DNA from: Bacteroidia bacterium
Lineage (GTDB): Bacteria; Bacteroidota; Bacteroidia; Bacteroidales; VadinHA17
Direction of reading: 5' to 3'
NCBI GenBank assembly: GCA_026391555.1
Contig: JAPLEB010000092.1
Coordinates: forward strand, 1 to 34,910
Length of the DNA: 34,910 bases
Shown in pieces: positions 84-29,060 of this stretch. The notes beneath the pieces were generated by a model. It saw nothing but the letters and a program-made list of their open reading frames with translations. It made no database searches and had not been told where the DNA came from. The position numbers and the translations under genes are program-made. Numbering within the stretch: position 1 is the stretch's first letter; every line of letters starts with the position of its first letter.

Positions 84-174
84 CACCTCGCATAGAAAAA
101 TCAAAGAGTTTATGCGCATTATTCCGGATACCCATTAAAATTTAAATGCGTTGACCCTAACGGAAGGGGCAAGA

Positions 175-250
175 ATTAGGTTTTTAGGGATCGAATAAAT
201 ATATTTGTGTTAAATAACGGCATCAATAAATAGTTTTTAGAGGTGCCCTA
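175..250 (+). promoter_or_regulatory. Promoter plus 5' leader hairpin, copy 1
   Basis: This is one of two copies of the same module; the other is at 11019-11092. They align without gaps over 74 nt with 59 identities. In order it holds an ATTAGGTTTTT block, a TATATTTG -7 box (200-207, fits TAnnTTTG), and a hairpin whose arms are GGCATC (219-224) and GGTGCC (242-247) around a 17-nt loop. The start codon of the next gene follows 15 nt after the hairpin. Box-to-box, box-to-stem and loop lengths are identical in both copies. Transcription would be expected to start just before the stem, placing the hairpin near the 5' end of the mRNA. Confidence 0.6.
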
Positions 251-262
251 ACTTAAAACGAT

Positions 263-817
263 ATGAAAAAATTATTGATTCTTTCGTTAGCAGTTGGATT
301 TGCAGTCTCTTCTTTTGCTCAGGATAAACCTCTTGTTTCAACAGAAAAAAATGTACTTAAAATAAACACATTAAGTTTATTTCTGGGTACGGGTTCTATC
401 TTTTATGAACGTAACTTAACCGATTTAACATCTGCTCAGTTGGGCGTCGGTTATATGAATTTTAAACTTGGTGATACAAAATTTACCGGATTAATACTTA
501 CACCGGAATTCAGAATTTATCCAAAGAAGAATGCCATTGATGGGTTTTATCTTACTCCATATTTGCGTTATCAAAAATTCACAGTTGAAAATAAAGAAGT
601 CGACCCAGCTTCTCAAGGATCATTAACCTCAATGGGTGGCGGACTTGTTTTTGGCAGACAGTGGATTACTGATTCAGGTTTTACAATGGACCTGTTTTTC
701 GGAGGGCACTATAGTGATGCCAATGTAAAAGTAAATTACGGAACAGATTCATTTGATGAAAATTTCTTTAAAGGTTTTAAAATGAGAATAGGGTTTGCCC
801 TTGGTTTCGCATTTTAA
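263..817 (+). CDS. Small outer-membrane beta-barrel protein, unknown function
   Basis: This 184-residue protein begins with a signal peptide (MKKLLILSLAVGFAVSSFA, cleavage before QDKP). The mature part alternates hydrophobic and polar residues, is rich in Gly, Tyr and Phe, and ends in Phe. Those traits fit an 8-stranded outer-membrane barrel of the DUF3575/OmpW-like size class. No enzyme motif is visible. It stands alone, with a minus-strand gene downstream. The leader hairpin module directly upstream is the same as that before the first PUL gene at 11108, so the two may be co-regulated. The ATG was chosen because it begins the signal peptide and sits at nearly the same distance from the leader as in the other copy. 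Family assignment is tentative. Confidence 0.8.
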   Translation: MKKLLILSLAVGFAVSSFAQDKPLVSTEKNVLKINTLSLFLGTGSIFYERNLTDLTSAQLGVGYMNFKLGDTKFTGLILTPEFRIYPKKNAIDGFYLTPYLRYQKFTVENKEVDPASQGSLTSMGGGLVFGRQWITDSGFTMDLFFGGHYSDANVKVNYGTDSFDENFFKGFKMRIGFALGFAF

Positions 818-10947: not shown

Positions 10948-11018
10948 AAAGACGTGAAAAACGTAACCTTCTATATGTCTGATATTCAATTAAACAAAAA
11001 TCAGGGAGGGAGGATAAA

Positions 11019-11093
11019 ATTAGGTTTTTGAAAATCATCTATATATATTTGTGTCAAACAACGGCACCAAAAAAAAGTATTTAGAGGTGTCCT
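11019..11093 (+). promoter_or_regulatory. Promoter plus 5' leader hairpin, copy 2, at the head of the PUL
   Basis: This is the second copy of the module at 175-250. It carries ATTAGGTTTTT at 11019-11029, TATATTTG at 11044-11051, and hairpin arms GGCACC (11063-11068) and GGTGTC (11086-11091) with a 17-nt loop ending TTTAGA. Compared with copy 1, one stem pair changes from U-G to C-G and another from G-C to G-U, so pairing is kept. The ATG of the sulfatase follows 16 nt after the hairpin. It is the strongest candidate control element for the PUL. Confidence 0.6.
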
Positions 11094-11107
11094 TATAATA
11101 TTTTTAT

Positions 11108-12481
11108 ATGCTAAATTTATTAACAAAAGGAATTTTACCCATATCATGCATAACTTTAGCTTCGGTAAACGCTGTTGAAGGAAAAGAGAAACCCAACATC
11201 ATCCTGATTCTTACTGATGATATGGGTTTTAGCGACATTGGTTGCTATGGTGGCAATTTTGCGCCTACGCCCAATCTCGATAAGATGGCCCGGGAGGGAA
11301 TCAGGTTCACCCAATATTACAGTGCCTCACCTATTTGCTCACCCTCACGGGTTGGTATCTTAACCGGGATGGCTCCTGCCAGTTGGAACATTACCAGCTT
11401 TCTGCACGAAAAGGCAGAAAACCGAAAATGTGAACAAGCCGACTTCCTGAGTTCGTCGGCGTCTTCCATTGCCCGGACAATTAAAACAGCAGGTTATACA
11501 ACCGGACACTTTGGTAAGTGGCACATGGGGGGCGGCCGCGACGTGGATAATGCACCAGGAATCAAATCGTATGGTTTCGACGAGTACTCGAGCACGTGGG
11601 AAAGCCCCGATCCAGACCCGTTGATTACGGCCTCCAATTGGATATGGAGCGATATAGACAGTGTAAAACGTTGGAATCGCACGGCATATTTTGTCGATAA
11701 AACCCTCGATTTTTTGACGCGACACAAAGATCAGCCCTGTTACATCAACCTTTGGCCCGACGATGTTCATACACCATGGGTGCCCAGTCAGGAGCGATTT
11801 GGAAATTACCCCAATGGACCGGAGGAGGAACGTAAATTCCGTGCTGTACTTGATGAATACGACCGGCAAATGGGTCGTTTGCTCGAAGGTCTGAAACAAC
11901 TGCGAATTGATGATAACACCATAGTAATTTTTACCAGCGACAACGGACCATTACCCAGTTTTAAGGGTGGCCGTTCTGGAGGTTATCGTGGTTCAAAAAT
12001 GTCGTTATACGAAGGCGGTACCTGTATGCCATTCATCGTACGCTGGCCCGGGCATGTTCCGTCAGGGAAAGTCGACCAGCAATCGGTATTGTCGGCCAAC
12101 GACCTGTTCCCAACCTTTTGTGCACTGGCCGGAGCTAAAATGCCAACGGGCTTTGCTTTCAGCGGAAAAGATAAAAGTCCGGTATTCCTTGGAAAATCGT
12201 CTAAAGAAAGCAGGACTTTTTATTGGGAATATGGTCGGAACGATAAATCATTCGGCTTTCCGAAAGGACTCGACCGCAGCCCCAACCTCGCTATCCGTGA
12301 AGGAAACTGGAAACTGCTGATAAATTTTGACGGAACCGGGGTCGAACTCTATAATCTCGAAACCGATAGAAAGGAAACGACCAATCTGGTTTCAGAAAGC
12401 CCGAAGCTGGCCGAAAAACTTAAAACAAAACTACTGGCCTGGAGAAATTCTATGCCTAAGCTGCCTTCAGATTCAAAATAG
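11108..12481 (+). CDS. Secreted S1-family sulfatase (Cys-type)
   Basis: This 457-residue enzyme hydrolyses sulfate esters, most likely on a polysaccharide or oligosaccharide. A signal peptide covers about 1-24, and the protein should be periplasmic or surface-exposed. Metal-binding Asp residues lie in LTDDMGFSDIG (37-38). The formylglycine motif is CSPSR (C77 to R81), followed by VGILTG; C77 must be converted to formylglycine by a maturase encoded elsewhere. FGKWHMGGG and FTSDNGP supply further active-site residues. The C-terminal part (LAIREGNWKLLI, ELYNLETDRKETTNL) is the usual S1 subdomain. It is the first PUL gene, 56 nt before susC. The substrate and S1 subfamily cannot be fixed from sequence alone. 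Confidence 0.93.
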   Translation: MLNLLTKGILPISCITLASVNAVEGKEKPNIILILTDDMGFSDIGCYGGNFAPTPNLDKMAREGIRFTQYYSASPICSPSRVGILTGMAPASWNITSFLHEKAENRKCEQADFLSSSASSIARTIKTAGYTTGHFGKWHMGGGRDVDNAPGIKSYGFDEYSSTWESPDPDPLITASNWIWSDIDSVKRWNRTAYFVDKTLDFLTRHKDQPCYINLWPDDVHTPWVPSQERFGNYPNGPEEERKFRAVLDEYDRQMGRLLEGLKQLRIDDNTIVIFTSDNGPLPSFKGGRSGGYRGSKMSLYEGGTCMPFIVRWPGHVPSGKVDQQSVLSANDLFPTFCALAGAKMPTGFAFSGKDKSPVFLGKSSKESRTFYWEYGRNDKSFGFPKGLDRSPNLAIREGNWKLLINFDGTGVELYNLETDRKETTNLVSESPKLAEKLKTKLLAWRNSMPKLPSDSK

Positions 12482-12537: not shown

Positions 12538-15420
12538 ATGAAATACGAAAAGAAAACAAGAAAATTACGGTGGTGTTTTCTGCTGTGTTGTTTGTTCGCC
12601 TGCCCCAATCTGACATGGGCACAGCAAATTGCCGAAGAACCGGCACAACAAACAGCTGTAGAAACGTCTAAAGTAGAAAATGAACCATTAGATTTAATTT
12701 TTAGGAAAATCGATGCGGTAGATTTCAACGGATCAGCTTATACTATAAGCGGTGACCAAATCCGTAATTTGCCGGTTACCAGCTTAACAAACCTGTTGGC
12801 AGGTATTGTGCCTGGCTTTTATTCACGGCAATCGGAAGGAGGGATGGCAAACGAAAGTGCCAATTTTTGGATTCGCGGAATCCGTACTTATTCCGAAGGT
12901 GTATTGGTCTTGATCGATGGGCAGGAAAGGACTTTTAGCACTTTATCTTCTCATGAAATTGAATCCATTACCGTCCTGAAGGATGCTGCAGCTACCGTAT
13001 TATATGGCATGCGTGCCACAAACGGGGCTATTCTGGTCAATACCCGTAAGGGCCGAATAGGCAAACCTTCTGTAGAGTTAACCACTCAGTTTATTTATCA
13101 GCAGCCTATCAGCATGCTGAAGCCGCTGAATGCATTGGGTTATGCTGAAAATTACAATACGGCGGTAAAAAATGACAATTTGGACGAGACTAACCTGTAT
13201 TCTCAATATTACCTTTCGCGGTACCGTAACCGCGACGGTGTAAATACCGAAATATATCCCGACATCAACTGGTCAGATGAATACTATAATAAAAATACTT
13301 CGTTGCAGCGGTATAATCTGAATGTATCAGGAGGATCGGAACGCAACCGCTACTTTATTAATGCAGGATTCCTTACCCAGTCGGGCATGTTTAATACAGA
13401 CGATGAATTTTCATATAATACCAACAATAATACTGACCGCTTTAATGTGCGTTCTAATGTTGAGTTCGATGTAACCTCCACAACGCTGCTGGCGGTCGAT
13501 TTGTATGTCTGGCACGAAAAGCAAAACAATCCGGGGGGCGATTATGTAACAGCTTATAATGGTTTGGTAACCACTGCTCCCAATTCTTTCCCGGCGTACA
13601 TTGTCGATAATGGTAACTATGTCGATCAGAGCGGTAATGCCATTGTAAGTATTAATAATAAAATTATTGCAGGTAACGGTATAAGCACTAACCCCTGGGC
13701 TTTATTAAACCGAAGTGGTTACACTGCATTGGAAAAAGTGTATGGTTCGTTCCGTGCTCAGCTCACACAAGACCTCTCGGCCTTGATAAAAGGGTTGAAA
13801 GTGTCGGCTATCTTCTCTATGGACTCTGAAACGCAGGCTTCAGCTGAGCGTACGAAAGGATTTGCTTACTATCAGGTAGTTGATCCCGCGAATGTGAACG
13901 TACTGAAAAAAACGGGAACAGATGCGAAAATGTCTAACTCCGTTTCCGGTAAAAATTCAAACAGACGCACCTCATTGGATATGCAGCTCTCGTATGCTCG
14001 CCAGTTTGGGCGGAATGGCATTTCGGCTTTGGCTTTCTTTAACCAATATGAAAATGCAAATGAGGTAAGTATCCCTACTCGTTTTCAAGGCGCCGGAGCA
14101 TGGTTGAACTATAATTTCGATAAACGTTATGGTCTCGATTTGATGATGAGTAACCAGGGATGCTATGTTTTCGCCCCCGGTCATCGTTTTGGTTTCTTCC
14201 CCACAGTAGCCGCCGGTTGGACTGTTTCTAACGAACCATTCTTTGAAAGTGTCAAAGGTTTTATACCTTACTTGAAGATGAAAGCATCGTATGGAATCCT
14301 GGGAAGTTACCGTGGTGTTTCTGAGTTCCGTTATATGGATCGTTTAAGAGCGACAACCAATATTTATAATTTTGGAAATACCATGACCAACGCTAATGGA
14401 TACGTTGAAGATATTATTACTAACCCCGGTCTTACTTGGGAGAAATCGAAACAAGCCAATGTGGGCGTCGAAACAAAATTGTTTAAAAATCAGTTGTCGG
14501 TTTCGGCCGAATATTTCCGCGACAACCGTTCCGATATCTACATGACCAATAATCGTGTCAGCTCTATTTTGGGGACTGTTGTCAACGTCGAACAAAATAT
14601 CGGGGCGATGTACACCAATGGATTTGATATTGCCGCGATGTGGAACTCTAAAATCGGAGAAGTGGGTTATACCATAGGGGGTACTTATTCTTTTTCTCTG
14701 AATAAGGTCACTGCTTCGGGTGAAGTCGATCAGCCTTATCCATGGTTATCGGATGTTGGATATTCAAGGGGAGTAAAACGCGGTTATATTGCCGATGGAT
14801 TTTTTAATTCTTACAATGAAATAGCGGCAGCTCCTACTCACACCTTCTCAGAAGTGCATCCGGGTGATATCCGCTATAAAGATATTAGCGGCGATGGTAT
14901 TATCGATACCGACGACAAGGTGCCTCTCGGATATGATGATACACCTAATATATTTTATGGCAGTACACTCGGTATATCGTACAAAGGTTTTGGTATTAAT
15001 GCTTTGCTTCAGGGTGCAGCCCGGGTATCTCGCACTATTCAAGACCTGGTAGCTTTCCCTTTCATTTCAAAAGGAAATATTTACGAGAACCAACTCGATT
15101 ACTGGACGCCCGAATATCAAACGTCAGAGCTACCGGTTGTTTCGACTATTAATTCGGGAAATGTTAACAATACACAAATCTCTTCGTTCTGGATCAGGGA
15201 TGCCGATTATCTGCGTCTAAAAATGTTAGAACTTTATTACGATTTTCCGAAATCGGCATCTGAAAAGGCTTTTGTAAAAAATATTCGGTTGTTTGCAAAC
15301 GGATATAACATATTTACCTTGACAAACTATAATAGTCAGTTGGATCCAGAGGCTAATGCGAATGGTTCGGGTATGCCGATTACCCGGAATGTCAGTTTAG
15401 GTTGTTCCATTAAATTTTAA
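12538..15420 (+). CDS. SusC-like TonB-dependent outer-membrane transporter, short N-terminal form
   Basis: The 960-residue protein imports glycan oligomers across the outer membrane with TonB energy. After a signal peptide (about 1-29, ending TWAQ) there is no recognisable carboxypeptidase-regulatory-like domain. A short segment NEPLDLIFRKIDAVDF (about 48-63) stands where the usual VVVGYGTQ box would be and probably serves as the TonB box region. The plug domain follows (NLLAGIVPGFYSRQ, FWIRGIRTYSEGVLVLIDGQ, ESITVLKDAAATVLYGMRATNGAILVNTRKG), then a 22-strand barrel with a Ca-binding-like loop DISGDGIIDTDDKVPLGY. It pairs with the SusD gene 6 nt downstream. Confidence 0.96.
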   Translation: MKYEKKTRKLRWCFLLCCLFACPNLTWAQQIAEEPAQQTAVETSKVENEPLDLIFRKIDAVDFNGSAYTISGDQIRNLPVTSLTNLLAGIVPGFYSRQSEGGMANESANFWIRGIRTYSEGVLVLIDGQERTFSTLSSHEIESITVLKDAAATVLYGMRATNGAILVNTRKGRIGKPSVELTTQFIYQQPISMLKPLNALGYAENYNTAVKNDNLDETNLYSQYYLSRYRNRDGVNTEIYPDINWSDEYYNKNTSLQRYNLNVSGGSERNRYFINAGFLTQSGMFNTDDEFSYNTNNNTDRFNVRSNVEFDVTSTTLLAVDLYVWHEKQNNPGGDYVTAYNGLVTTAPNSFPAYIVDNGNYVDQSGNAIVSINNKIIAGNGISTNPWALLNRSGYTALEKVYGSFRAQLTQDLSALIKGLKVSAIFSMDSETQASAERTKGFAYYQVVDPANVNVLKKTGTDAKMSNSVSGKNSNRRTSLDMQLSYARQFGRNGISALAFFNQYENANEVSIPTRFQGAGAWLNYNFDKRYGLDLMMSNQGCYVFAPGHRFGFFPTVAAGWTVSNEPFFESVKGFIPYLKMKASYGILGSYRGVSEFRYMDRLRATTNIYNFGNTMTNANGYVEDIITNPGLTWEKSKQANVGVETKLFKNQLSVSAEYFRDNRSDIYMTNNRVSSILGTVVNVEQNIGAMYTNGFDIAAMWNSKIGEVGYTIGGTYSFSLNKVTASGEVDQPYPWLSDVGYSRGVKRGYIADGFFNSYNEIAAAPTHTFSEVHPGDIRYKDISGDGIIDTDDKVPLGYDDTPNIFYGSTLGISYKGFGINALLQGAARVSRTIQDLVAFPFISKGNIYENQLDYWTPEYQTSELPVVSTINSGNVNNTQISSFWIRDADYLRLKMLELYYDFPKSASEKAFVKNIRLFANGYNIFTLTNYNSQLDPEANANGSGMPITRNVSLGCSIKF

Positions 15421-15426
15421 CAGGCT

Positions 15427-17169
15427 ATGAGAAAAAAACTTATAATATTAGTGATATCATTTACTACGTTATTATTAACAAGGTGCGAATATCTGGATGA
15501 AAAACCTTATGACTGGGCGCAACCTGATGATGTATTTACAGACGAAAGTAATTATATGCGGCCAATAAATCAGGCTTACTCGTATATGAAAGGTGGGTTT
15601 GACCGGATTTCCAGCTCATTTCTCGATGCTGCTACCGACGATGGGATTGGCACCGTGAGCGGATCGTCTATTTATCTTCTGTCAAGTGGCTTTGTAACCT
15701 CCAGCAGTCCTGTTGAAGGCTGTTGGGATCAATCGTATAAAGGGATACGGCAAGCTTTGTTTGTTCAGAAAAACCTGGCAGAACAAAAGCTGATTTTGAC
15801 TAAAAAAACCGAATTGGAGGTGGCCATCATCAAATCGGTTTATTCCGGTGAAATGTATGCGTTGCGGGCACTCTATGAATTTGATTTGCTGAGACATTAT
15901 GGTGGTTACCCCATTATAGACAAATATTATTTATTTGATGATCCGGAAATAGCTCAAAAAACAAGAGACTCTTTTGAGGATTGCGTAATAAGTATTGTAA
16001 ATATCTGCGATTCCGCGATCAAGTATTTGGACGTGGAGCCTTCAAGCGGGTCCTACGGACGGATGAGTAAAGGTATGGCCATGGCTATTAAAGCTAAAAC
16101 GCTGGTATATTCGGCCAGTCCGTTATTTAATCAGCCGGGAAATTCCAATCCGTTGACAGGGTATGCCGGGATTACCGATGCAGACGTGAAGACTCGTTGG
16201 GAAGCTGCAGCTGCAGCCTGTGCGGCCGTTATTAACCTGAAAAAGTCAACCGGCACCAGCAAATACGTTTTGTACGCTGCTGCTAACGCGTATGAAAAGT
16301 TGTTTGTTACCTGTCCCAACGATGAGTATATTGTGTTTAGAGCGGCCCCTAAGTCGAACGATTTGGAGAACCGCCAATATCCACCTTCGATTTCAAATAA
16401 TTCGGGTGGAGGTACGGTTCCTTCCCAGGAATTTGTTGATGCCTTCACCAACGCTGACGGTTCTGATTATGTTCGGGGCATTCCGGCAAATCAATATACC
16501 TCGCGTGATCCCCGTTTAAGCGTAATTGTTGGGTATAACGGCTCTACATACGGTCTCCGCGGTAAAATCTATACAAAAACCGGCACCGGCGCTACGCTGG
16601 ATGCGTTGAATTCGGTAGACGATAAATCAACCAATACCGGTTATTATTTGCGCAAGTTTCTTGATACGAACGTGAGTTTTTCTGTAGTTCCACCCGCTAC
16701 GGCATTTCATCTGTTCCCTATAATACGCCTGGCAGACATCTATTTGCTGTATGCCGAAGCGATGAATGAGGCTTACGATGGTATAGATGTAGACCCCAAA
16801 GGTTACGGTCTTACGGCAAAAGGTGCGATAGGAAAGGTGCGTATACGTGCCGGATTTCCTCTTGCTACCGATAAATATTTGTTAGGGGTAACTACACGTG
16901 TACAGATGCGTGAGAAAATTAAAAACGAGCGTCGTATCGAGCTCTGCTTCGAAGAACAACGTTATTTCGATTTAAGACGGTGGATGGATGGTGCTAAATT
17001 GGCCCAACCAATTAACGGGATACGCATTGAGGATAATAGTGGAACCTTGAATTACAGTTATTTTGAGGTTGATGCACAACGTAAGTTTGATACAAAAATG
17101 TACCTGCATCCTATACCGCTGAGTGAAATAAAAATTTCAACGGGGTTAGATCAAAACCCCGGTTGGTAA
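15427..17169 (+). CDS. SusD-like surface glycan-binding lipoprotein
   Basis: The 580-residue lipoprotein caps the barrel of the preceding SusC-like transporter and helps capture glycan. The signal peptide ends in a lipid-attachment cysteine (LLTRC, C20) followed by EYLDEKP. The SusD fold is shown by YLDEKP near the mature N-terminus, the TPR-like helices (EMYALRALYEFDLLRHYGG), the central MAMAIKAKTLVYSASPLFN segment, and the C-terminal ERRIELCFEEQRYFDLRRW signature, then LHPIPLSEIK. It starts 6 nt after susC, so the two are surely co-transcribed. Confidence 0.96.
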   Translation: MRKKLIILVISFTTLLLTRCEYLDEKPYDWAQPDDVFTDESNYMRPINQAYSYMKGGFDRISSSFLDAATDDGIGTVSGSSIYLLSSGFVTSSSPVEGCWDQSYKGIRQALFVQKNLAEQKLILTKKTELEVAIIKSVYSGEMYALRALYEFDLLRHYGGYPIIDKYYLFDDPEIAQKTRDSFEDCVISIVNICDSAIKYLDVEPSSGSYGRMSKGMAMAIKAKTLVYSASPLFNQPGNSNPLTGYAGITDADVKTRWEAAAAACAAVINLKKSTGTSKYVLYAAANAYEKLFVTCPNDEYIVFRAAPKSNDLENRQYPPSISNNSGGGTVPSQEFVDAFTNADGSDYVRGIPANQYTSRDPRLSVIVGYNGSTYGLRGKIYTKTGTGATLDALNSVDDKSTNTGYYLRKFLDTNVSFSVVPPATAFHLFPIIRLADIYLLYAEAMNEAYDGIDVDPKGYGLTAKGAIGKVRIRAGFPLATDKYLLGVTTRVQMREKIKNERRIELCFEEQRYFDLRRWMDGAKLAQPINGIRIEDNSGTLNYSYFEVDAQRKFDTKMYLHPIPLSEIKISTGLDQNPGW

Positions 17170-17202
17170 ACATGTTTAAGCAATAAAATTTAAAAAAAAC
17201 AT

Positions 17203-20200
17203 ATGAAAAATATAATTCTGATATGCATATTCGCCTGTTGCTCTTTACAACTGTTTGCCCAAATGAGGGTTAGCGGAACTGTGAGAGATGAAGCTGGATT
17301 AGAGGTAATCGGGGCTAATGTTGTACAGAAAGGTACTGTCATCGGTATTGTTACCGATATTGCCGGGAAATTCAGTATCATATTGAATAATAACGCCGAA
17401 CTTGTATTGCAGATTTCTATGATAGGTTATGAGAAATCTGAGATTGATGTTCGTAATAAAACATCAGTTGATGTGGTATTGAAAAATTTGAGTGTAGGTT
17501 TGGGAGAGGTCCTTGTAGTAGGGTACGGTACGCAAAAGAAAGCCTCTGTCACCGGTTCTATTGCTAACGTTGGAAGCAGAGAGCTGAATGCTTCCCCAGT
17601 ACCCAGTGTGACTAATGCGTTGACCGGACGTGTTTCGGGATTGGTTACACGTCAGGAAAGCGGACGTCCGGGAGGTGATGCTGCCACACTTTTTATTCGT
17701 GGTCGCGGCACTTTTAACAATTCTGCCCCCTTGGTGTTGGTTGATGGAGTCGAGCGTAGTTTTTCGCAGATTGACCCCGACGATATTGAAAGTGTGTCAA
17801 TCTTAAAAGACGCTTCTGCAACTGCCGTTTATGGGGTACGTGGCGCCAACGGCGTAGTTTTGGTTACTACAAAACGAGGTAACACCGGAAAATCAAAAAT
17901 TTTATTTTCTTCCGAATATGGAATTACCCAGTACAACAGGATAACAAGAGTACTGAATGCTGAAACAACTTCCCGGTTCCAACGTGAAGGAACCATAAAT
18001 GCAGGTTTGGACCCTTCTGTTATTTCAAATACCAGTAATTTTAAAGTTTCTGAATATGATAACTATTTGTATCGTACGCAGTTGAGTCCGTTTACCCATC
18101 CTGATAACAGTTTTGTGGATATTTTTACAAAACCAGGTGCTCAGCAGAAATACAACCTCAATATTTCTGGAGGTAACAATGCAGTTAAGTATTATGTTTC
18201 GGTGGGATATTTTACGCAGGATGGTATGTTCCAGACCGATGTTAATAAAATCAAGGAGCATCCTACACTTCAGCGATTGATTGAATTTTCTCCCGAAGCA
18301 GAAAAAGCGTTTGTAGTTCACGACTATAATCAGGAATATTTGTTCAATCGTTTGAATACCCGGTCGAATATCGATATATCTATAACCGACGATTTAAAAC
18401 TGGGTGTGGACATGGCCTACCGTTTCATGCGGCAAAATCGTCCCGGAACGTACGATGGTTGGGACAATGCTGCCGAGAATATGCGACTGTTCGGTATGTT
18501 CTATCGAAATGCACCGCAGGCATTCCCTATAGTAAACATAAACGGTACTTTTGGAGGTGCTATTGGTGTCTGGCGTCAAAATCCGTTGGTAACGGTCAAT
18601 GAAACCGGTTACCGCACCGATTACGATAATCAGATGGAAACAACCTTATCTCTGAATTATAATTTGCATAAAGTATTAAAAGGCCTGAGTATCGACGGTA
18701 AATACTCATACGATATAGCATGGAGCAACTGGCGCGGTATGCAGTGGCGGCCATCTATTTTTAGTTATGATCCGGTCACTGATTATTATACACTGGGGTT
18801 AGCGGCTGTTTTGCCGTATACTGGATCGGGCAGGACGTCGGCAACCTATAATAAATATATGGAATTGGCTCTCCGGTATAAACAAACTTTTGCTTCAAAA
18901 CATAATGTATCGGCTGTGGTATTGGGAACATATAGCTCGGTATCGTTACCGTCTGGTGAGTATTCATATGTGCCTCAGATCTATCAGGCCCTGATTGGCC
19001 GTGCCAATTATGATTACGACAATCGTTATCTCTTCGAAGTCAATATGGGGTATAATGGTTCTAACCGTTTTGCCGAAGGACATCGTTATCAGCTCTTCCC
19101 CGCCGCATCTGCCGGATGGATATTGACTAACGAACACTTTATACCTAAAATGGCTGTGTTGAATTATGCCAAAATTCGCGGTTCTTATGGACAGGTGGGT
19201 TCCGATAAGCTAGGCTCGTTCAGTTATTATTACAAATCTACTTATGATAACGGTTCTTCATATTCGTTCGGAGCTACGCAGAACCCTATCGTTACGGGCC
19301 TTATTGAAGGGAGTCTGGCAAATGAACTCATTACCTGGGAAACCTCCACAAAATACAATATTGGTTTTGATACCCGTTGGTTTGATTCGAAGTTGACTTT
19401 GAATGGCGATATCTTTAAAGAACATCGTACCGATATTCTTACTACTCCCAACCGCTTTTTGGTCACCTCCGGGATTACCAGTACAGCTCCGGTAAACCTC
19501 GGTATTGTCGATAACCATGGATACGAAATTGAATTAGGATGGGACGACCTTATCGGAAATGATTTCTCTTATTTTGTAAAAGCTATTTATGGAAATAGCA
19601 AAAATACAGTCGTAGAAATGAGTGAGGCTAATAAACCGTACGATTATATGTATTCGACAGGACAATCGATCGGGCAATGGATAGGTTATAAGTTTGACGG
19701 TTTCTTTCAATCGTCCGACGAGATTGCCAGCTCTCCGCAACAGTTCGGATTATCCAATCTGGCTCCCGGCGATATCAAGTATAAAGACTTGAACGGCGAC
19801 GGAATCGTTAATCAAGACGACCAATGCCCCATTGGTTACGGACCGTTGTCCGAAATCACGTATTCGTTACGGATGGGTATTGACTATAAAGGTTTTGATA
19901 TAAGCATTATGTTCCAGGGCGCAACACACAGTTCAATATATTTGGTGGGCGATTTGGGCTGGGACAATTCTTGGGGTAACTATTATGATAATCATATTAA
20001 CCACTGGACTCCCGAAACTGCTTCTACGGCAACATATCCGCGCTTTTTGCAGAAATCCGATGCGAAAAATCAGAACTACTATTTGTCCGACTTTTGGTTA
20101 ATCGATGGAGATTATCTCCGTTTGAAAAATCTTCAGGTAGGCTATTCGTTGCCTAAACTTTTTTTGAAGAGAATTTCTTTACAGGAGGTTCGGTTCTATG

Positions 20201-20331
20201 CAAATGCTTATAATCTGTTAACCTGGGACAAAGTGAAAAAAGTTGACCCGGAAACCAATCCCGAAAGTAACAACGGATATTTTTATCCTCAGCAAAGAAT
20301 TTCGAACTTCGGTATGTCAGTAACATTCTAA
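17203..20331 (+). CDS. SusC-like TonB-dependent outer-membrane transporter, full-length form
   Basis: This 1042-residue transporter has the standard layout: signal peptide (about 1-20, ending FAQ), carboxypeptidase-regulatory-like domain (about 22-95, with VSGTVRDEAGLEVIGANV and GKFSI), TonB box region EVLVVGYGTQKK (102-113), plug (ALTGRVSGLVTRQ, LFIRGRGTFNNSAPLVLVDG, SVSILKDASATAVYGVRGANGVVLVTTKRG), then the barrel with a Ca-binding-like loop DLNGDGIVNQDDQCPIGYG. It begins 33 nt after the first SusD gene and is followed by its own SusD. Its plug and N-terminus differ from the first SusC, so the two pairs probably import different fragments of the same glycan. Confidence 0.97.
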   Translation: MKNIILICIFACCSLQLFAQMRVSGTVRDEAGLEVIGANVVQKGTVIGIVTDIAGKFSIILNNNAELVLQISMIGYEKSEIDVRNKTSVDVVLKNLSVGLGEVLVVGYGTQKKASVTGSIANVGSRELNASPVPSVTNALTGRVSGLVTRQESGRPGGDAATLFIRGRGTFNNSAPLVLVDGVERSFSQIDPDDIESVSILKDASATAVYGVRGANGVVLVTTKRGNTGKSKILFSSEYGITQYNRITRVLNAETTSRFQREGTINAGLDPSVISNTSNFKVSEYDNYLYRTQLSPFTHPDNSFVDIFTKPGAQQKYNLNISGGNNAVKYYVSVGYFTQDGMFQTDVNKIKEHPTLQRLIEFSPEAEKAFVVHDYNQEYLFNRLNTRSNIDISITDDLKLGVDMAYRFMRQNRPGTYDGWDNAAENMRLFGMFYRNAPQAFPIVNINGTFGGAIGVWRQNPLVTVNETGYRTDYDNQMETTLSLNYNLHKVLKGLSIDGKYSYDIAWSNWRGMQWRPSIFSYDPVTDYYTLGLAAVLPYTGSGRTSATYNKYMELALRYKQTFASKHNVSAVVLGTYSSVSLPSGEYSYVPQIYQALIGRANYDYDNRYLFEVNMGYNGSNRFAEGHRYQLFPAASAGWILTNEHFIPKMAVLNYAKIRGSYGQVGSDKLGSFSYYYKSTYDNGSSYSFGATQNPIVTGLIEGSLANELITWETSTKYNIGFDTRWFDSKLTLNGDIFKEHRTDILTTPNRFLVTSGITSTAPVNLGIVDNHGYEIELGWDDLIGNDFSYFVKAIYGNSKNTVVEMSEANKPYDYMYSTGQSIGQWIGYKFDGFFQSSDEIASSPQQFGLSNLAPGDIKYKDLNGDGIVNQDDQCPIGYGPLSEITYSLRMGIDYKGFDISIMFQGATHSSIYLVGDLGWDNSWGNYYDNHINHWTPETASTATYPRFLQKSDAKNQNYYLSDFWLIDGDYLRLKNLQVGYSLPKLFLKRISLQEVRFYANAYNLLTWDKVKKVDPETNPESNNGYFYPQQRISNFGMSVTF

Positions 20332-20350
20332 CATCAAAAAAAAAATAATC

Positions 20351-22060
20351 ATGGGAAAAATATTAAAAATTATGTTTGCATGTCTGTTGCTATTGGGATG
20401 CAATACTGAGGGACTGATGGATTCCACCGATCTGGATGATTTGACTACCGCCAAAGTTTATTCGGATGTTGAATATACCCGTAAAGTCCTTATCGACTCC
20501 TACGGACGAATGCGGGATGTAATAAGCACCAATCAAGGTAGTTTTGGTCGTTTTTTTAATTTAGCTAACTCGTGTTGTATGCTTGACAACGCCACCGACG
20601 ATGGAGCAGGTAATACGACACGTACGGCCGGTATTGTTCCTGGTCTCCAGGTTTTTGTTACCGCGGGAATCACGGCTGTTACCAACCCTGTGGCTCAGAC
20701 TCATCCATGGACATTTTATTATAGAGCAATACGATCAGTCAATACGTTTATAGCAAATGTAGACAAATCGCCCCTCGAAGAGGCCGAGAAGGTCAGTAGT
20801 AAAAATCAGGCTCGTTTTTTGCGTGCATACTACTATCACGAACTCTTTCGTTGGTTTGGCCCTCTGGTAATCACTGAAGAGCCATTAGATCCTTTTGCCT
20901 TTAATACCACCAAAAGAGAAACCTTAGAACATACGGTTCAGTTTATCGTAGATGAGTTTGACGCTCTTTCTCAAGAGGGTGTATTACCCGATGCATGGGA
21001 CGATGTCAATTACGGACGTCCTACCCGCGGTACCGCTTTGGCTTACAAGGCCCGTACGTTGCTCTATGCTGCCAGCCCGTTGTTTGAAGATTCCGGAGTT
21101 ACCTGGGATCAGGCTGCCCAGGCTGCGTTGGATATGATTAACTATTCAGAATCGGGTGGCTGGCACGAGCTTTATTATGATGCGACCGAACCCCTAAGGA
21201 GTTATTCCCGCTTATTTAATGAACGTAAAAACAAAGAAATTCTGTTGAGTTATATACGGCCATACAATAATGATTTATACAATAATTTTCCGGCGTTTAA
21301 TCCATGGAATGTAAATAAAGAGGAAACAACTTGTCCTACTCAATGGCTTGTAGATAGTTACGATATGGCCGATGGATCACAACCTATTGTCGGGTACAAT
21401 TCTGATTTTAGCCCGATAATTAATTCCGCTTCGGGATATAATGATCAAAATCCGTATGCCAACCGTGACCCTCGTTTAGCCCAAACCATACTCTATCATG
21501 GGTTGACATGGCCTAAAGTAAACGGTACACCGGCAACTGTTGACATCAGTACTGCTCTGAAATGGGGTAGCGGTTATTTTCTGACCAAATGGCTGGATAA
21601 CCGGATTGATCACATTACCGGAGGTACTACCTCTATGAATTTTATTATGATGCGTTATGCAGAAGTATTGCTGAATTATGCCGAAGCGGTAAATGAATCT
21701 GAAAACTCGGCGGCTGCCCGTGATAAAGCAGTTGTTAAGTTGAATAAAATCCGTTCACGTGGCGGAATTACCAATCAGCTTATTGGCGCCGATTATACAC
21801 AGTCAAGTCTGCGCGACCGTATTCGTAAAGAACGTCGGGTTGAATTGTGCTTTGAAGAACATCGTTTCTTCGATATTCGTCGATGGAAGATTGCAAAAGA
21901 TGTAATGATACGTCCTGCAATGGGTATAACTATTGTAAGCGGGAAATTTGTGCGTATACAGTTAGACTCGCGATCATACAACGAACGAATGGATTTGATG
22001 CCGATTCCGAATAACGAAACGAACAATGCTTCTTTAATCTTTCAAACCCCCGGATATTAA
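20351..22060 (+). CDS. SusD-like surface glycan-binding lipoprotein
   Basis: The 569-residue product has a lipoprotein signal (LLLLGC, C17) and SusD features: the TPR-like segment NQARFLRAYYYHELFRWFGP, the central TRGTALAYKARTLLYAASPL segment, MMRYAEVLLNYAEAVNES, and the C-terminal ERRVELCFEEHRFFDIRRW signature followed by LMPIPNNE. It lies 19 nt after the second susC and forms the lid of that transporter. It is clearly diverged from the first SusD, so this is not a recent tandem duplication. Confidence 0.96.
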   Translation: MGKILKIMFACLLLLGCNTEGLMDSTDLDDLTTAKVYSDVEYTRKVLIDSYGRMRDVISTNQGSFGRFFNLANSCCMLDNATDDGAGNTTRTAGIVPGLQVFVTAGITAVTNPVAQTHPWTFYYRAIRSVNTFIANVDKSPLEEAEKVSSKNQARFLRAYYYHELFRWFGPLVITEEPLDPFAFNTTKRETLEHTVQFIVDEFDALSQEGVLPDAWDDVNYGRPTRGTALAYKARTLLYAASPLFEDSGVTWDQAAQAALDMINYSESGGWHELYYDATEPLRSYSRLFNERKNKEILLSYIRPYNNDLYNNFPAFNPWNVNKEETTCPTQWLVDSYDMADGSQPIVGYNSDFSPIINSASGYNDQNPYANRDPRLAQTILYHGLTWPKVNGTPATVDISTALKWGSGYFLTKWLDNRIDHITGGTTSMNFIMMRYAEVLLNYAEAVNESENSAAARDKAVVKLNKIRSRGGITNQLIGADYTQSSLRDRIRKERRVELCFEEHRFFDIRRWKIAKDVMIRPAMGITIVSGKFVRIQLDSRSYNERMDLMPIPNNETNNASLIFQTPGY

Positions 22061-22095
22061 TTAACAGATAAAAAATAACAATAATACATTATAAT

Positions 22096-23031
22096 ATGAA
22101 AAAGACAATTGGAATAATACTATCGATAATCGTTGCTTTAACGGTTGTGTCGTGCGATGACAGCACGTTTGAACTTGGTTATAAAGCTCCCCTGACCATA
22201 GAATTCGCGGGTATTGACTACAGTAATATTGTTACGGTAGAAAAAGGTGTTATTAGCTATACTGCTCAAATCGGGATTTTAGCTCCTGAAACAGGAGTAA
22301 AAACATTTGAGATTTTTAATGCCGATGCTAAAACCGGAGCCAAAGGTACTCTTATTGGGGGAACTTCTGTGTCTTTTAGTGAGCTAGTACCCTCTTACAG
22401 CGTGGAATATACGTTTATTAATCTCATCGTAAATAAATGTATTAAGGTGGTTGTTTCCGATATGAAAGGAAATGTATATGAACGCAACCTGTTTGTAAAG
22501 ATAACCCCGGCAGTTTTGTTCTCCCAATCGGTAAAAATGGAAACAGCAGAAGTCTATTACGGACCTTACTATGCTACATGGTTGTATGGTCGTGTTTACA
22601 TGCGTGGAGATGGCGAAAAATACAAAGACGAAATTGATTTCTCATTAGGAGATGTCGTTATAGCATCTGAAGGAGCTGCTGCCGTTCCGGCTTTGGTTAA
22701 CCCGGCTGTAAGAGGAAACAATAATTTACTGACCATAAATGGATTGCAGCAAACTAAGTTTGAACTTACTGTCCTTACAAAAGCTCAGTTCGATGCAATT
22801 AATGAGGTAGATGGTTCATCGATCAGCTCATTGGCCGATCCTGCGCAAGATGCCGTAAAATTAGTTAGCGGCAAAGTTTATCTGTTTAAAACCGCAAATG
22901 GAAAAAAAGGCCTTATATACATAGCGACTTTGACTCTTAAAACTGGTACTATCGAAAATGTAGCAGGTGAATGGATAATTAATTCGCCTTACTCCCTGGC
23001 TTCACTTACTGCAAAAGTGATGCAGCAATAA
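22096..23031 (+). CDS. SusE-position surface lipoprotein, putative glycan-binding protein
   Basis: The 311-residue protein has a lipoprotein signal (LTVVSC, C20) followed by acidic residues DDS. The mature part is beta-rich with at least two sandwich-like segments (about 28-140 and 145-300) and no catalytic motif I recognise. Its position directly after the second SusC/SusD pair, its lipid anchor and its lack of enzymatic signature fit a surface glycan-binding protein of the SusE/SusF kind. The sequence family itself was not recognised. A strong hairpin follows at 23084-23132, which may mark the end of the import part of the operon. Confidence 0.8.
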   Translation: MKKTIGIILSIIVALTVVSCDDSTFELGYKAPLTIEFAGIDYSNIVTVEKGVISYTAQIGILAPETGVKTFEIFNADAKTGAKGTLIGGTSVSFSELVPSYSVEYTFINLIVNKCIKVVVSDMKGNVYERNLFVKITPAVLFSQSVKMETAEVYYGPYYATWLYGRVYMRGDGEKYKDEIDFSLGDVVIASEGAAAVPALVNPAVRGNNNLLTINGLQQTKFELTVLTKAQFDAINEVDGSSISSLADPAQDAVKLVSGKVYLFKTANGKKGLIYIATLTLKTGTIENVAGEWIINSPYSLASLTAKVMQQ

Positions 23032-23083
23032 TTTTAGGTTAGATTAAAATTATAAGTAACATATTAAATGTTGCAATTATTCG

Positions 23084-23132
23084 CTGCCCTGCTATTCAAT
23101 TTCCTTCATCATGTATCGGGAAAGCAGGGCAG
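23084..23132 (+). terminator. Strong intergenic hairpin after the SusC/SusD block
   Basis: CTGCCCTGCT (23084-23093) and AGCAGGGCAG (23123-23132) form a perfect 10-bp GC-rich stem with a 29-nt loop. The flanking bases (GCAATTATTCG before, TTGAATTTGC after) can extend it imperfectly. No T-run follows, so it is not a textbook intrinsic terminator. It may be a leaky terminator or an mRNA processing and stability element separating highly expressed import genes from the enzyme genes. Confidence 0.5.
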
Positions 23133-23170
23133 TTGAATTTGCGCATGTACAGTGTTAAGGAGCTGAAAAA

Positions 23171-24193
23171 ATGAAAATTCATTCATGTAAAATAATCGTT
23201 TCGGTATTTGCTGTTTTTTTTATTTCATCCTGTCTCGGGCAAAATATTGACCAGGGAAAATATACAAACCCGGTATCCAATATTACTAATATTGGTGATC
23301 CATTTGTATTAACTTATGATGGAATGTATTATATGTACTGTACTTCTATTGTAGATCAGGGGTTTTATGTTTGGACTTCAAAAGATCTGGTAAATTGGGT
23401 AAATCAAGGGTTTGCTTTATCAAATAAATCATCAGGAGTCTTCGGTATCAATCGCTTTTGGGCACCCGAAGTGATAGAATTTAAAGGCAAGTTTTACATG
23501 ACCTACAGTGCCGGTGGTACCGATGGTGTTTTAAAGTTATGCCTTGTAGTCAGTGACAATCCCCTGGGCCCTTTTACTAATTATCAATCACCATTGTATG
23601 AACATGAACTATCACATATTGACGCAACTATTTTTATTGATGCCGATAAATCATATATTTATTTTGTCAGGGATTGTAGCACAAATAATATCAACGGAAG
23701 GCCAACCAGCCAAATATTTGTAGCCCAATTGAGTGATGACCTTAAAACATTTGTTACCCAACCAAAGCTGGTCATTACCCCCGATCAGGATTGGGAAGAC
23801 ATAAACGGCACCCGGCTTTGGAACGAAGGGCCATTTGTGCTTAAGCACGAAGGGAAATATTTTATGACTTACTCGGCAAACGGCTATAACACTAACGAAT
23901 ATTGCGTGGGTTATGCAACAGCCGACAATCCTTTTGGACCTTGGGTAAAAGCTTCTGAAAATCCAATTCTTAAAGCGAATCTGGATATAGGTGTTTCAGG
24001 CCCGGGACATAATAGCTTTGCTTCTTCTCCGGATGGGACTGAATTATTTATGATTTATCACGCCCATACATTTCCAGATATGCCGAGCGGTAACCGGGCC
24101 GTATATATTGATCGGATTCATTTTATTGATGGAAAAATGGTAGTAGATGGACCAACAAAAAGCCCTCAGCTTTTTCCCAATAGCACCAAATAA
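23171..24193 (+). CDS. GH43-family glycoside hydrolase
   Basis: The 340-residue protein is a five-bladed propeller enzyme of the GH43 type, whose members usually remove or cut arabinose or xylose residues. The catalytic triad can be placed: Asp base D43 in NIGDPFVL, pKa-tuning D151 in HIDATIFI, and acid E219 in WNEGPFVL. RFWAPEV (95-101) and GPGHNSFASSPDGTE are further family marks. The signal region ends in ISSC (C21), a plausible lipid-attachment site. It contains only the catalytic domain. It begins 139 nt after the SusE-position gene and 29 nt before the next sulfatase. Exact specificity is not predictable. Confidence 0.93.
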   Translation: MKIHSCKIIVSVFAVFFISSCLGQNIDQGKYTNPVSNITNIGDPFVLTYDGMYYMYCTSIVDQGFYVWTSKDLVNWVNQGFALSNKSSGVFGINRFWAPEVIEFKGKFYMTYSAGGTDGVLKLCLVVSDNPLGPFTNYQSPLYEHELSHIDATIFIDADKSYIYFVRDCSTNNINGRPTSQIFVAQLSDDLKTFVTQPKLVITPDQDWEDINGTRLWNEGPFVLKHEGKYFMTYSANGYNTNEYCVGYATADNPFGPWVKASENPILKANLDIGVSGPGHNSFASSPDGTELFMIYHAHTFPDMPSGNRAVYIDRIHFIDGKMVVDGPTKSPQLFPNSTK

Positions 24194-24222
24194 TCAAAAA
24201 AAGCAATTTAACACTTAGAGCA

Positions 24223-25623
24223 ATGAAAAAAATTATTATTATCTTATTAATAATTACATTTGGGTCAAGGCACATTTTTGCAGCTAAAGACAAACCAAAG
24301 AATATTAAGCCAAATATCCTTATTCTTCTTGCTGATGATCTGGGATTTGGAGACGTAGGATTTAATGGCAGCGATATAAAAACCCCGAATATAGACCGCA
24401 TAGCCGCCGAAGGTGTGAAGCTAAATCAATTTTATTCCTGCCCCATGTGTTCACCTACCCGTGCCGGATTAATGACCGGACGTTATCCATTGCGTTTTGG
24501 TCTCATGCGTTCAGTAATTCCACCACAGCGCGATTTCGGGCTTTCAGTCAACGAAGAAACGATCGCGGATATGTTAGGCAAAGCCGGGTATAATCATCGC
24601 GGAATGGTTGGTAAATGGCATTTAGGACACCGTCGTCAGGAATGGTTACCCGTCAATAGGGGATTTACCCATTTTGAAGGTTGTTACAATGGAGCCGTTG
24701 ATTATTTCAATCGAGACAGGGATGGGGAGTTGGATTGGCATATCAATAATAAACCTTCCGGTAAGGAAGGATATACTACAGATCTGATTGGTGAAGCTGC
24801 AATTGAATTCATTAAATCTGTACCACAGGAAGAACCTTTCTTTTTATATGTTCCATTTACAGCGCCACACGCTCCTTTTCAGGCTAAACCGGAAGATATG
24901 GCAAAATATCCTAATCGCCAGGGACTTAAAAAGACTTATGCCGGTATGATTGATTGTTTGGATCAGAATATTGGAAAAATATTAAAAAGCATTGAAGAAA
25001 GGGGACAGTTAGACTATACGTTTATTTTATTTTTCAGCGACAATGGTGGAGTGCTCAAAGTAGGCAGCAATGGAGAACTCAGAGGTGAAAAATTGACTCC
25101 ATACCAGGGAGGTATTCGTGTTGCAGCTGCAGCACGATGGCCTGCAGAAGGGGTATTTGGTGGGAAAGTAATTGAAGAACGTATGGGCTATATAGATGTT
25201 TTCCCAACTCTCATGGCAATTGCAAAATTTGAAGGAAAGCCGAAAAATGAATTGGATGGTATTAATGTTTTGGAAGGGATAAAAGGAAATAAACTAAAAG
25301 ACCGTAGTTGGTTCACTTACGAAGATCAAGGTGACGAAAAGATTGAGGATTTGGCCATTAACAATAACCAGTGGAAGCTTGTTGTAAAACGCGGAGCGCC
25401 AGACTCCGAAAATATTACGGAGATTAATCAATTATTTCAAATATCAACGGATCCAAATGAGAAGATGGATTTGTCTGCTCAAAAACCTGATAAAGTTGAA
25501 GAACTGATGAAAGAATTAAACAGTTTTTACGGTTTGAAAGCGAAAAATCAAATACCAAGATATTCGGAAAAAGATAATTACCCGGGACCAGTATTAATTC
25601 CAAATTGGCAACCTGAAAAATAA
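24223..25623 (+). CDS. Secreted S1-family sulfatase (Cys-type), arylsulfatase B-like
   Basis: The 466-residue enzyme has a signal peptide (about 1-21, ending IFAA), metal-binding LADDLGFGDVG (38-39), and formylglycine motif CSPTR (C76 to R80) followed by AGLMTGRYPLRFG. VGKWHLGHR and FFSDNGGV complete the active site. The overall arrangement, including the RYPLRFGLMRSVIPP segment after the signature, resembles arylsulfatase B/N-acetylgalactosamine-sulfatase-type proteins, a group with varied substrates in Bacteroidota. It is probably periplasmic and acts on imported sulfated oligosaccharides. It differs strongly from the other three sulfatases here, so the four likely attack different sulfate positions. 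Confidence 0.93.
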   Translation: MKKIIIILLIITFGSRHIFAAKDKPKNIKPNILILLADDLGFGDVGFNGSDIKTPNIDRIAAEGVKLNQFYSCPMCSPTRAGLMTGRYPLRFGLMRSVIPPQRDFGLSVNEETIADMLGKAGYNHRGMVGKWHLGHRRQEWLPVNRGFTHFEGCYNGAVDYFNRDRDGELDWHINNKPSGKEGYTTDLIGEAAIEFIKSVPQEEPFFLYVPFTAPHAPFQAKPEDMAKYPNRQGLKKTYAGMIDCLDQNIGKILKSIEERGQLDYTFILFFSDNGGVLKVGSNGELRGEKLTPYQGGIRVAAAARWPAEGVFGGKVIEERMGYIDVFPTLMAIAKFEGKPKNELDGINVLEGIKGNKLKDRSWFTYEDQGDEKIEDLAINNNQWKLVVKRGAPDSENITEINQLFQISTDPNEKMDLSAQKPDKVEELMKELNSFYGLKAKNQIPRYSEKDNYPGPVLIPNWQPEK

Positions 25624-25648
25624 CGCGATTGATAAAAAAATATAAAAA

Positions 25649-25759
25649 ATGACAATTAAACCAATAATTACTGTCTTATTACTCTCTCTTTTTATCAACG
25701 TCAATTCCCAAAATTATGCTCCGGTCAGTGGTGAAGGAATTGGAGTCAGGATTATATAG
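25649..25759 (+). pseudogene. Truncated secreted-protein stump (36 codons)
   Basis: The ORF encodes a clean signal peptide (MTIKPIITVLLLSLFINVNS) and a short mature start, QNYAPVSGEGIGVRII, then a TAG. It sits in the PUL 25 nt after one sulfatase and 38 nt before the next, in the position of a full gene. It looks like the surviving 5' end of a deleted secreted enzyme or binding protein. Too little remains to name the family. A genuine tiny secreted peptide is the less likely alternative. Confidence 0.5.
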
Positions 25760-25797
25760 AAGATTGTTTGTTGTAAAAATCAGTAAATAAATACTTT

Positions 25798-27249
25798 ATG
25801 AACGAAGGGACCATTGGTCGGTTAATGAAGACCCCTGCATTGGCAGCATTGCCGTTGGGAATTCTTGCATCATTTCCAATTTACTCATGTAGCTCTGAAA
25901 AAGCATCATTGGCAAAACCCAATGTAATATTTGTCGTGCTGGACGACATGAACAATTTCGGGATTGGGGGGCCGGAGAAAGTAAAAACCCCTAATATCGA
26001 TAAACTAAGGAATTCATCTGTCACCTTTACCAGGGCTAACTGTTCTGCTCCTCTTTGCATGCCTTCCAGGGCGTCCTTCTTTACCGGAGTTTATCCTCAC
26101 CATTCAGGGGTGTATACAAATGGCGGGGATCCCTGGAACAGGTCGGAAGTGCTTAAACAATCTGAAACATTGCCGGAGTTGTTCAAACGTAACGGCTATT
26201 ACACATTTGGACGGGGCAAAATTTATCACGCGAAGATGGAGGAAGGAAGGATTGAACGGAATTTTGATAACCGCCCTATCTTTGAAGGCGGTTTCGGCCC
26301 CTTTCCGGATGAAGGGCACAGGGTTTTTTCGGAAAAGGACAAATTCGTGAATTTTTGGGGGGTGCAAGCCTTCCCCGACAGCTTGTTTCCCGATGTAATT
26401 AATACCAGTGCTACAATTAATTTTTTAAATCAAAAACACGATAAACCTTTTTTTGTAACCTTGGGGCTTTGGCGGCCGCATACTCCTTTCACAGCACCCC
26501 AACGCTTTTTTGATATGTACAACTCTGAAGAAATTGAAATCCCTAAAGGGTACCTTGCCAATGATTTGGATGATGTTCCTGAATTTGCCATAAATCTGCT
26601 TGATCCTTTCGGGCGGTTTGAAGTTACCGGTGCAAATAATGTGGACCGGTGGAAACACTTTATTCATGGTTATTATGCCTGTACATCTTTTGCCGACTGG
26701 AATGTCGGACGGTTAATAGACGCTTTAAAACAAAGTGATTATGCTGAAAATACCATCATTGTTCTGTTGTCAGATAATGGATTTCATGTTGGGACAAAAA
26801 ATCATTGGGAGAAAAATACCTTATGGGATGCTTCTGCCATAGTGCCGTTAATCATTCAGATACCCGGCTCTCATGCCAGGGGGACAACTGTCCAATCTCC
26901 GGTTGGACTGATTGACCTTTATCCGACGTTGGTCGATTTATGTAAACTGGAATCTCCTAAGCAAAAATTGGATGGGGTAAGTTTGCGTTACTTCCTGGAA
27001 AAGCCGGGTTATAGCCGGGATCAGCCAACATTGACAAGCCTTGGGGAAAATTTAATTTCTATTAGAAGCCAAAAATACCGCTATATCCAATATCCGGATG
27101 GGACTGCAGAGTTGTACGATACTGAAATTGACCCGTTTGAATGGAATAATTTGATTAATAAGAAAGAATTAACTCCTGTTGTGAAAGAACACCAAAAGTA
27201 TATTCCATCCACTTTTATGAAAGAATTACCCGGAGGAAGAAGAAATTAA
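25798..27249 (+). CDS. S1-family sulfatase (Cys-type), iduronate-2-sulfatase-like
   Basis: The 483-residue protein shows metal-binding VVLDDMNNFG (49-50) and the formylglycine motif CMPSR (C87 to R91) in the context NCSAPLCMPSRASFFTG, typical of the iduronate-2-sulfatase-like branch. GRGKIYHAK replaces the more common GKWH motif, also seen in that branch, and LLSDNGFHVG and KNHWEKNTLWD complete the site. The N-terminus has a hydrophobic stretch ending IYSC (C31), a possible lipid-attachment site. Translation may start at the ATG at 25825 (MKTPALAAL), which gives a more normal signal peptide than the ATG used here. Confidence 0.92.
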   Translation: MNEGTIGRLMKTPALAALPLGILASFPIYSCSSEKASLAKPNVIFVVLDDMNNFGIGGPEKVKTPNIDKLRNSSVTFTRANCSAPLCMPSRASFFTGVYPHHSGVYTNGGDPWNRSEVLKQSETLPELFKRNGYYTFGRGKIYHAKMEEGRIERNFDNRPIFEGGFGPFPDEGHRVFSEKDKFVNFWGVQAFPDSLFPDVINTSATINFLNQKHDKPFFVTLGLWRPHTPFTAPQRFFDMYNSEEIEIPKGYLANDLDDVPEFAINLLDPFGRFEVTGANNVDRWKHFIHGYYACTSFADWNVGRLIDALKQSDYAENTIIVLLSDNGFHVGTKNHWEKNTLWDASAIVPLIIQIPGSHARGTTVQSPVGLIDLYPTLVDLCKLESPKQKLDGVSLRYFLEKPGYSRDQPTLTSLGENLISIRSQKYRYIQYPDGTAELYDTEIDPFEWNNLINKKELTPVVKEHQKYIPSTFMKELPGGRRN

Positions 27250-27250
27250 A

Positions 27251-27290
27251 GACAAAAGTCGAAGCGCAGCGAAGATCCCGCTTCGGCGCG
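27251..27290 (+). repeat. Intergenic palindromic repeat, copy A
   Basis: The 40-nt element is 37/40 identical to 30831-30870, in the same orientation. It contains a 7-bp inverted repeat, CGAAGCG and CGCTTCG. It starts two bases after a sulfatase stop codon. The role is unknown; a transcript-end hairpin or a dispersed mobile palindrome are the options. Confidence 0.6.
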
Positions 27291-27371
27291 GACAAAAGGC
27301 TCAAGACATTATGAAAATACATCATAAAAATTGGGAATGTTTCAGATGTAAAAAATATTAATAAGAGCTAT

Positions 27372-29006: not shown

Positions 29007-29060
29007 ATTTAATCGAGTTGGATATTGACTTCGACAATTAGAATATTTTAAATTCAAATA

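Follow-up and report, generated by a model that had tools for sequence, protein, structure and literature searches.

What is the short stretch of DNA that precedes two unrelated genes of one contig, and how did it come to stand before both? The window analyzed here is the whole stretch of 34,910 nucleotides, which is the entire contig C52 of a 3.5 Mb assembly in 164 contigs. The initial annotation described a promoter-leader module that heads a PUL and recurs before an unrelated gene, and proposed that its hairpin is selected as RNA. Its primary observations were confirmed. Positions 11019-11092 align to 175-248 without gaps at 59 of 74 identities, as compared to 36 for the runner-up position in the window (mean 20.1, sd 3.9), and a repeat search widens the pair to 174-249 and 11018-11093 (80% over 76 nt). 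The spacings are fixed in both copies, with 25 nt from ATTAGGTTTTT to TATATTTG, 12 nt from box to stem, a stem of 6 bp and a loop of 17 nt. The genes that follow are indeed unrelated by Pfam, one encoding a DUF3575 protein and the other a sulfatase. However, these 74 nt are only the end of the feature, since blastn-type homology to an insertion sequence (IS) covers more at both places (Table 1). Based on the results below, we conclude that the shared module is very probably the right end of an IS5-family insertion sequence, whose predicted outward-pointing promoter would have been retained as the driver of the neighboring gene. A candidate RNA regulator would thus be replaced by an evolutionary mechanism, in which decayed IS ends persist as promoters.

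The initial annotation called for a search of the whole genome and related genomes, and further copies were found in both. A blastn search with positions 11000-11110 identified 9 places in the own genome, from which a sequence-only model was built. At E up to 1 this model matched 27 places there, with 14 below 1e-6, and at E up to 0.001 it had matches in 29 of the 62 genus genomes (own genome counted). An exact pattern search of a contig collection returned 16 stretches, which by title belong to assemblies of Bacteroidales or Bacteroidetes, of one Paludibacter sp. and of one Draconibacterium sp. Several copies are preceded by the 3' part of a transposase gene. The copies stop after AGGTGCCC or a variant of it, and beyond this tip non-orthologous copies diverge. 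The exception is a pair in the own genome, on C101 and C104, that has a further 76 nt in common (92% identity), beginning 6 and 28 nt past the tip; these two are therefore not independent insertions into unique DNA. In one other genome (G019:C15:24630-24768, L107) two right-end modules stand in tandem, the second being partial.

The element to which the module belongs was found intact in a relative. This copy (L184:621-1928, corresponding to G046:C9:41120-42427) is 1308 bp long, encodes a 349-aa transposase, is bounded by the inverted repeats GGGCATCTCTAAAAACC and GGGCACCTCTAAATACT and is flanked on both sides by TATA, a 4-bp target duplication. It terminates at the end of the module, which is thus the last part of the element. 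The transposase (L184:727-1776) matches NF033581 transpos_IS5_4 of NCBIfam with 281 bits against a cut-off of 140, and its Pfam matches are DDE_Tnp_1 and DUF772. Together, a DDE transposase of IS5 type and terminal inverted repeats place the parent in the IS5 family. No match to the transposase was found among sequences of solved structures at E up to 0.001, and our search of the literature returned no description of this IS element or its relics.

Ends of the element were also paired in other genomes. A 17-nt tip pattern found GGGCATCTCTAAAAACC at left ends and GGGCACCTCTAAATACT at right ends in 11 genomes, several pairs being about 1.3 kb apart. The paired-end sample comprised ten two-ended elements, three of them internally deleted (715-751 bp). 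One is truncated by a contig end; among the nine testable, the 4-nt flanks are identical in five (TATA once, TTAA four times) and unlike in four. Most of the other genus copies in this set have broken frames, and one element has an uninterrupted transposase gene. In G009 all five right-end flanks (TTAA three times, TTGA and TATA) were matched among seven left-end flanks, and four of the five strong copies begin 31-54 bp from a contig start, as expected since repeats break assemblies. A full element flanked by TTAA on both sides, with a transposase 94% identical, is also present in a viral-classed contig (L312, IMGVR_UViG_3300002498_000187), and adds a further identical pair of flanks. A preferential loss of left ends in the window genome was considered and dropped, because one and the same 17-nt pattern yields just 4 right versus 2 left ends there, while the longer model counts 14 right ends.

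Within the window itself only right-end sequence was found, with no left end, target duplication or transposase at either copy. Judged by their sequence, the two copies are relics rather than elements with both ends and a transposase. The sole left-end match in the window (IS 1-27, E 0.011) sits on a right-end tip, as expected from inverted repeats. The PUL relic starts 2 nt past the stop codon of a response-regulator gene (ending at 10947) and stops 15 nt before the ATG of the sulfatase. A gapped local alignment to the IS reaches further, more weakly, to 10913 within the response-regulator ORF and, at the second copy, to 92; the contig starts only 165 bp before the second copy. By Pfam, the PUL comprises four sulfatases in total, two GH43 proteins and two TonB-receptor/SusD pairs, all following the relic, along with one protein without a Pfam match and one that carries a secretion tail and matches BNR weakly. 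Window positions 148-158 share the flank TGCGTTGACCC, just 5' of the right end, with relics on G000:C99 and G000:C117, as if another repeat abutted the right end in these three.

Table 1. Positions of the two right-end relics in the window, their sequence elements and the genes that follow them.
Feature	Position	Strand	Basis
PUL right-end relic, IS 1165-1308	10950..11092	+	blastn of intact IS, 81% over 145 columns, E 5e-32
TTAGGTTTTT box, -33 region of predicted outward promoter	11020..11029	+	exact-pattern search
TATATTTG box, -7 (Bacteroides consensus TANNTTTG)	11044..11051	+	sequence
GGCACC, 17-nt loop, GGTGTC; 3' arm inside IS terminal inverted repeat	11063..11091	+	sequence
Sulfatase, PUL gene 1	11108..12481	+	Pfam PF00884
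Remaining PUL (two TonB-receptor/SusD pairs, two GH43, three more sulfatases, two others)	12538..32045	+	Pfam
Second right-end relic, IS 1226-1308	166..248	+	blastn, 80% over 84 columns, E 1.5e-13
TTAGGTTTTT box, second relic	176..185	+	exact-pattern search
TATATTTG box, second relic	200..207	+	exact-pattern search
GGCATC, 17-nt loop, GGTGCC, second relic	219..247	+	sequence
DUF3575 gene 3' of second relic	263..817	+	Pfam PF12099

The right end bears an outward promoter-like sequence, TTAGGTTTTT-N14-TATATTTG, that fits the Bacteroidota promoter consensus. Two papers give the Bacteroides -7 consensus as TANNTTTG (PMC9330008, PMC6927303), which TATATTTG fits; TTAGGTTTTT lies at the expected -33 position, though it is not the TTTG/TTG/TG form alone that these papers quote. 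In the own genome the exact pattern TTAGGTTTTT-N14-TANNTTTG has 7 sites, each of them at a right-end copy. When up to 2 mismatches are allowed there is no enrichment in the own genome (22 sites versus 28 for the reversed control). Across the 62 genus genomes the exact pattern has 52 sites in 22 genomes, as compared to a single site in all of them for the reversed control. We sorted the 52 sites by overlap with earlier matches, in part from sequence only, into 32 right ends, 16 of a 3-keto-disaccharide-hydrolase promoter type (the downstream gene being checked for 14 of these), 2 upstream of DUF3575 orthologs and 2 of other kinds. These results support the earlier reading of a module common to unrelated genes and heading a PUL, as a predicted promoter.

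The tip-less sites raise the question of whether the promoter began with the element. A host promoter class consisting of TTAGGTTTTT and TANNTTTG might have been captured by the IS, in which case some of the copies in front of genes would never have come from the element. The same core precedes the gene for a 263-aa 3-keto-disaccharide hydrolase in the 14 species checked (L239, L241-L249, L255-L257 and L259) without an IS tip, and it likewise precedes DUF3575 orthologs in G005, G017 and G019. However, the 7 exact sites of the window genome and the 32 of 52 in the genus are right ends, 40 of the 62 genomes lack an exact site, and in a genome of another family (G036) a related element already has a similar right end. 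We consider an origin in the host unlikely, and the element may be the source of the promoter. The window-genome ortholog of the hydrolase gene (L252) lacks the promoter core upstream.

The DUF3575 gene is a more delicate case. Orthologs were found in 8 other genomes at E up to 1e-20. Among the four loci L270-L273, the sequence upstream of three orthologs reads TTAGG[T/A]TTTT-N14-TANNTTTG and lacks an IS tip, and the leaders are similarly long, so that the DUF3575 promoter may not derive from the element. The stretch upstream of a fourth ortholog (G023) corresponds to part of the IS left end (TAAAAACCTATTGTTGATA). An empty site for the PUL copy was also sought, but at E up to 1e-150 the sulfatase was not matched in any of the 61 other genus genomes; a paralog at 73% is present in the own genome only.

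Copies were then compared for where they lie and which bases they keep. We placed 72 copies, taken from genus matches of about 40 bits and more plus five weaker ones of the own genome. Of these, 38 are solo right ends and 16 retain remnants of the transposase; 13 are full or recent (8 two-ended, and 5 of G009 with the other end on a different contig), and the hydrolase group accounts for 5. By mechanical calls of ORFs of at least 80 aa, and among copies that are not all independent (some being orthologous or identical), a forward start lies within 100 nt of 29 of the 36 solos that could be evaluated, of 8 of the 14 copies with remnants and of all 5 in the hydrolase group, as compared to 1 of the 13 full or recent copies (solo versus full or recent, Fisher p 5.9e-6). 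The corresponding figure for random intergenic positions, drawn from seven DNA stretches of the own genome, is 20.5%. Of the 13 evaluable relics of the own genome, 12 are at most 92 nt from an ORF start and the remaining one is at 239.

The bases of the right end differ in how well they are kept. Identity to the full-element consensus, in full and solo copies respectively, was 0.97 and 0.91 for TTAGGTTTTT, 0.94 and 0.95 for TATATTTG and 0.75 and 0.70 for the spacer. The hairpin decays like the flanking bases, with 0.93 and 0.76 for the 5' arm, 0.94 and 0.82 for the loop, 0.98 and 0.80 for the 3' arm and 0.92 and 0.74 for the flank. Among the 38 solo relics the promoter is better kept in 29 and the hairpin in 5, with 4 ties (Wilcoxon p 3e-5), a comparison in which well-kept boxes are favored since the copies were found by a sequence model, one that covers the arms too. 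The hairpin is better preserved in three relics of the own genome (C12, C85 and C104:46280). Decay also differs between copies of the same insertion: G017:C193 has transposase sequence (IS 883-1155) that is absent in G008:C76 before the same gene, and the right end is present in both. Copies at graded stages of decay and their intact relatives thus form a natural series, in which the promoter boxes are kept and the terminal repeat, the hairpin and the transposase are let go. It appears that such right-end remnants of the IS have been preserved to switch genes in related Bacteroidales.

We propose that the IS would insert upstream of a gene, after which most of the element would decay or be deleted. 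The right end would persist since its promoter drives the neighbor, which the above statistics suggest to be the sulfatase-rich PUL and the DUF3575 gene in the present case. Transcription would begin a few bases past TATATTTG, and the hairpin at the 5' end of the mRNA would be a by-product of the terminal repeat, not a selected leader.

A rival view is that a hairpin at the mRNA start is selected as a binding site, stability element or regulatory element, and that it came to precede several genes by spreading. The initial annotation suggested such selection on RNA structure, and pointed to two stem changes with pairing kept. Pairing is indeed kept, but the changes are not compensatory, as U.G versus C-G and G-C versus G.U are one-sided wobbles. 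Over 65 copies, which comprise 38 different arm pairs, pairing holds in 179 of 228 cells as compared to 177.5 +/- 2.8 in shuffles, and 1779 of 5000 shuffles of the 3' letters did equally well or better (65 of the 72 copies were used, without the 5 that belong to the 263-aa gene and 2 with a gapped arm). Thus the covarying hairpin was not borne out, and the lack of pairing conservation among the wider copies, judged by shuffles and not by R-scape, is close to the outcome that the initial annotation had itself named as contrary to its proposal. Significant covariation as for a structured cis-regulatory RNA was likewise not seen by this measure. The 3' arm lies within the terminal inverted repeat, which explains why this arm is conserved in intact copies.

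Several observations nevertheless speak for the RNA. Stable hairpins are predicted at 211-248 (z -4.56) and 11055-11092 (z -2.53); the stem folds well in the DUF3575 leader, and is the best fold of the PUL RNA if this is ended at the tip (11055-11092). Some copies depart from the commonest pair on both sides, for example G-C replacing A-U in G044:C24 and in two copies of G020, or U-A replacing C-G in G020:C319. A subterminal inverted copy of the tip is above chance in L312, G036, IS1168 and IS1169, and its arms change in step between the last two. Among the hydrolase-gene leaders, some of which are able to form such stems, GCAC/GTGC is found in one species and GCAT/ATGC in another. Against these stand the pairing test and the decay of relic arms where promoter boxes hold. 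In addition, the minimum-energy fold of the full PUL leader (11055-11107) is a different hairpin, and 7 of 11 family-level right ends (G046 and G028 included) have no subterminal inverted copy beyond chance. Where present, this copy can also be explained by one transposase binding both sites, and it is probably a feature of the element that serves end recognition by the transposase. Rfam returned no match in the window at gathering scores, and for 8 loci at E up to 5 it returned 3 matches, all to eukaryotic RNA families and far below the gathering score. Thus the module resembles the cis-regulatory 5' leaders of Rfam in a predicted hairpin near the presumed mRNA start, but differs from them in having no credible Rfam match and no covariation. 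We regard a selected leader RNA as highly unlikely, and note as a caution that two similar leaders with a fitting hairpin may be transposon ends. Slightly less probable still is that the relics are functionless debris of a dead IS lying upstream of genes by chance: most copies are decayed and AT-rich targets are common upstream of genes, but solo relics and full or recent copies differ in their nearness to forward starts, and promoter boxes are selectively retained.

An insertion sequence end that drives its neighbor has known counterparts. IS1168 and IS1169, IS5-family elements of Bacteroides, have the nearest named transposases among the plasmid matches listed (50.6% and 48.8% identity), and both appear as nim gene activators in a list given by a review (PMC9330008). 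Like the present element, both have a G-run in the right end and a subterminal inverted tip copy, and IS1169 has TAAATTTG in its right end. In contrast, the tip sequence, about half of the transposase residues and the hosts differ, and IS1168 has no exact TANNTTTG at the corresponding place. Furthermore, IS1168 and IS1169 are annotated with their transposase, whereas in the window the right end alone remains. Mobile promoters, and with them promoter propagation in prokaryotes, are an established idea (PMC9208149). As described there, we find similar predicted promoters before unrelated genes that are tied to a mobile element. The present case differs in that the carrier is identified, that relics occur without the rest of the element, and that the boxes can be shown to be kept in preference to other bases.

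The genes that follow right ends in the own genome were also surveyed. Besides the PUL and the DUF3575 gene, 10 of 11 further downstream proteins were scanned. They are two sulfatases, a GH88 protein, a protein that has a secretion tail and weak similarity to glycoside hydrolases, a GtaA-type protein, a TonB receptor, a beta-barrel protein, one CarboxypepD_reg match below cut-off and two without a match. The right ends could conceivably form a dispersed set of promoters wiring the lineage's secreted polysaccharide-degradation genes (sulfatases, glycoside hydrolases and TonB receptors), with TTAGGTTTTT as the site of a specific regulator, although we hold this to be doubtful. If it were true, TTAGGTTTTT would be more than a -33 element, and a transposable element would have created a carbohydrate regulon.

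Two further observations were made. A G-run of variable length lies just 5' of the outward promoter, at L184 1839-1849 and in the right ends of IS1168 and IS1169 (L310 1496-1503 and L311 1497-1503), and variation of its length upstream of the promoter is possible. Finally, a 50-nt repeat, 90% identical, follows two genes of the PUL at window positions 27249-27298 and 30829-30878.
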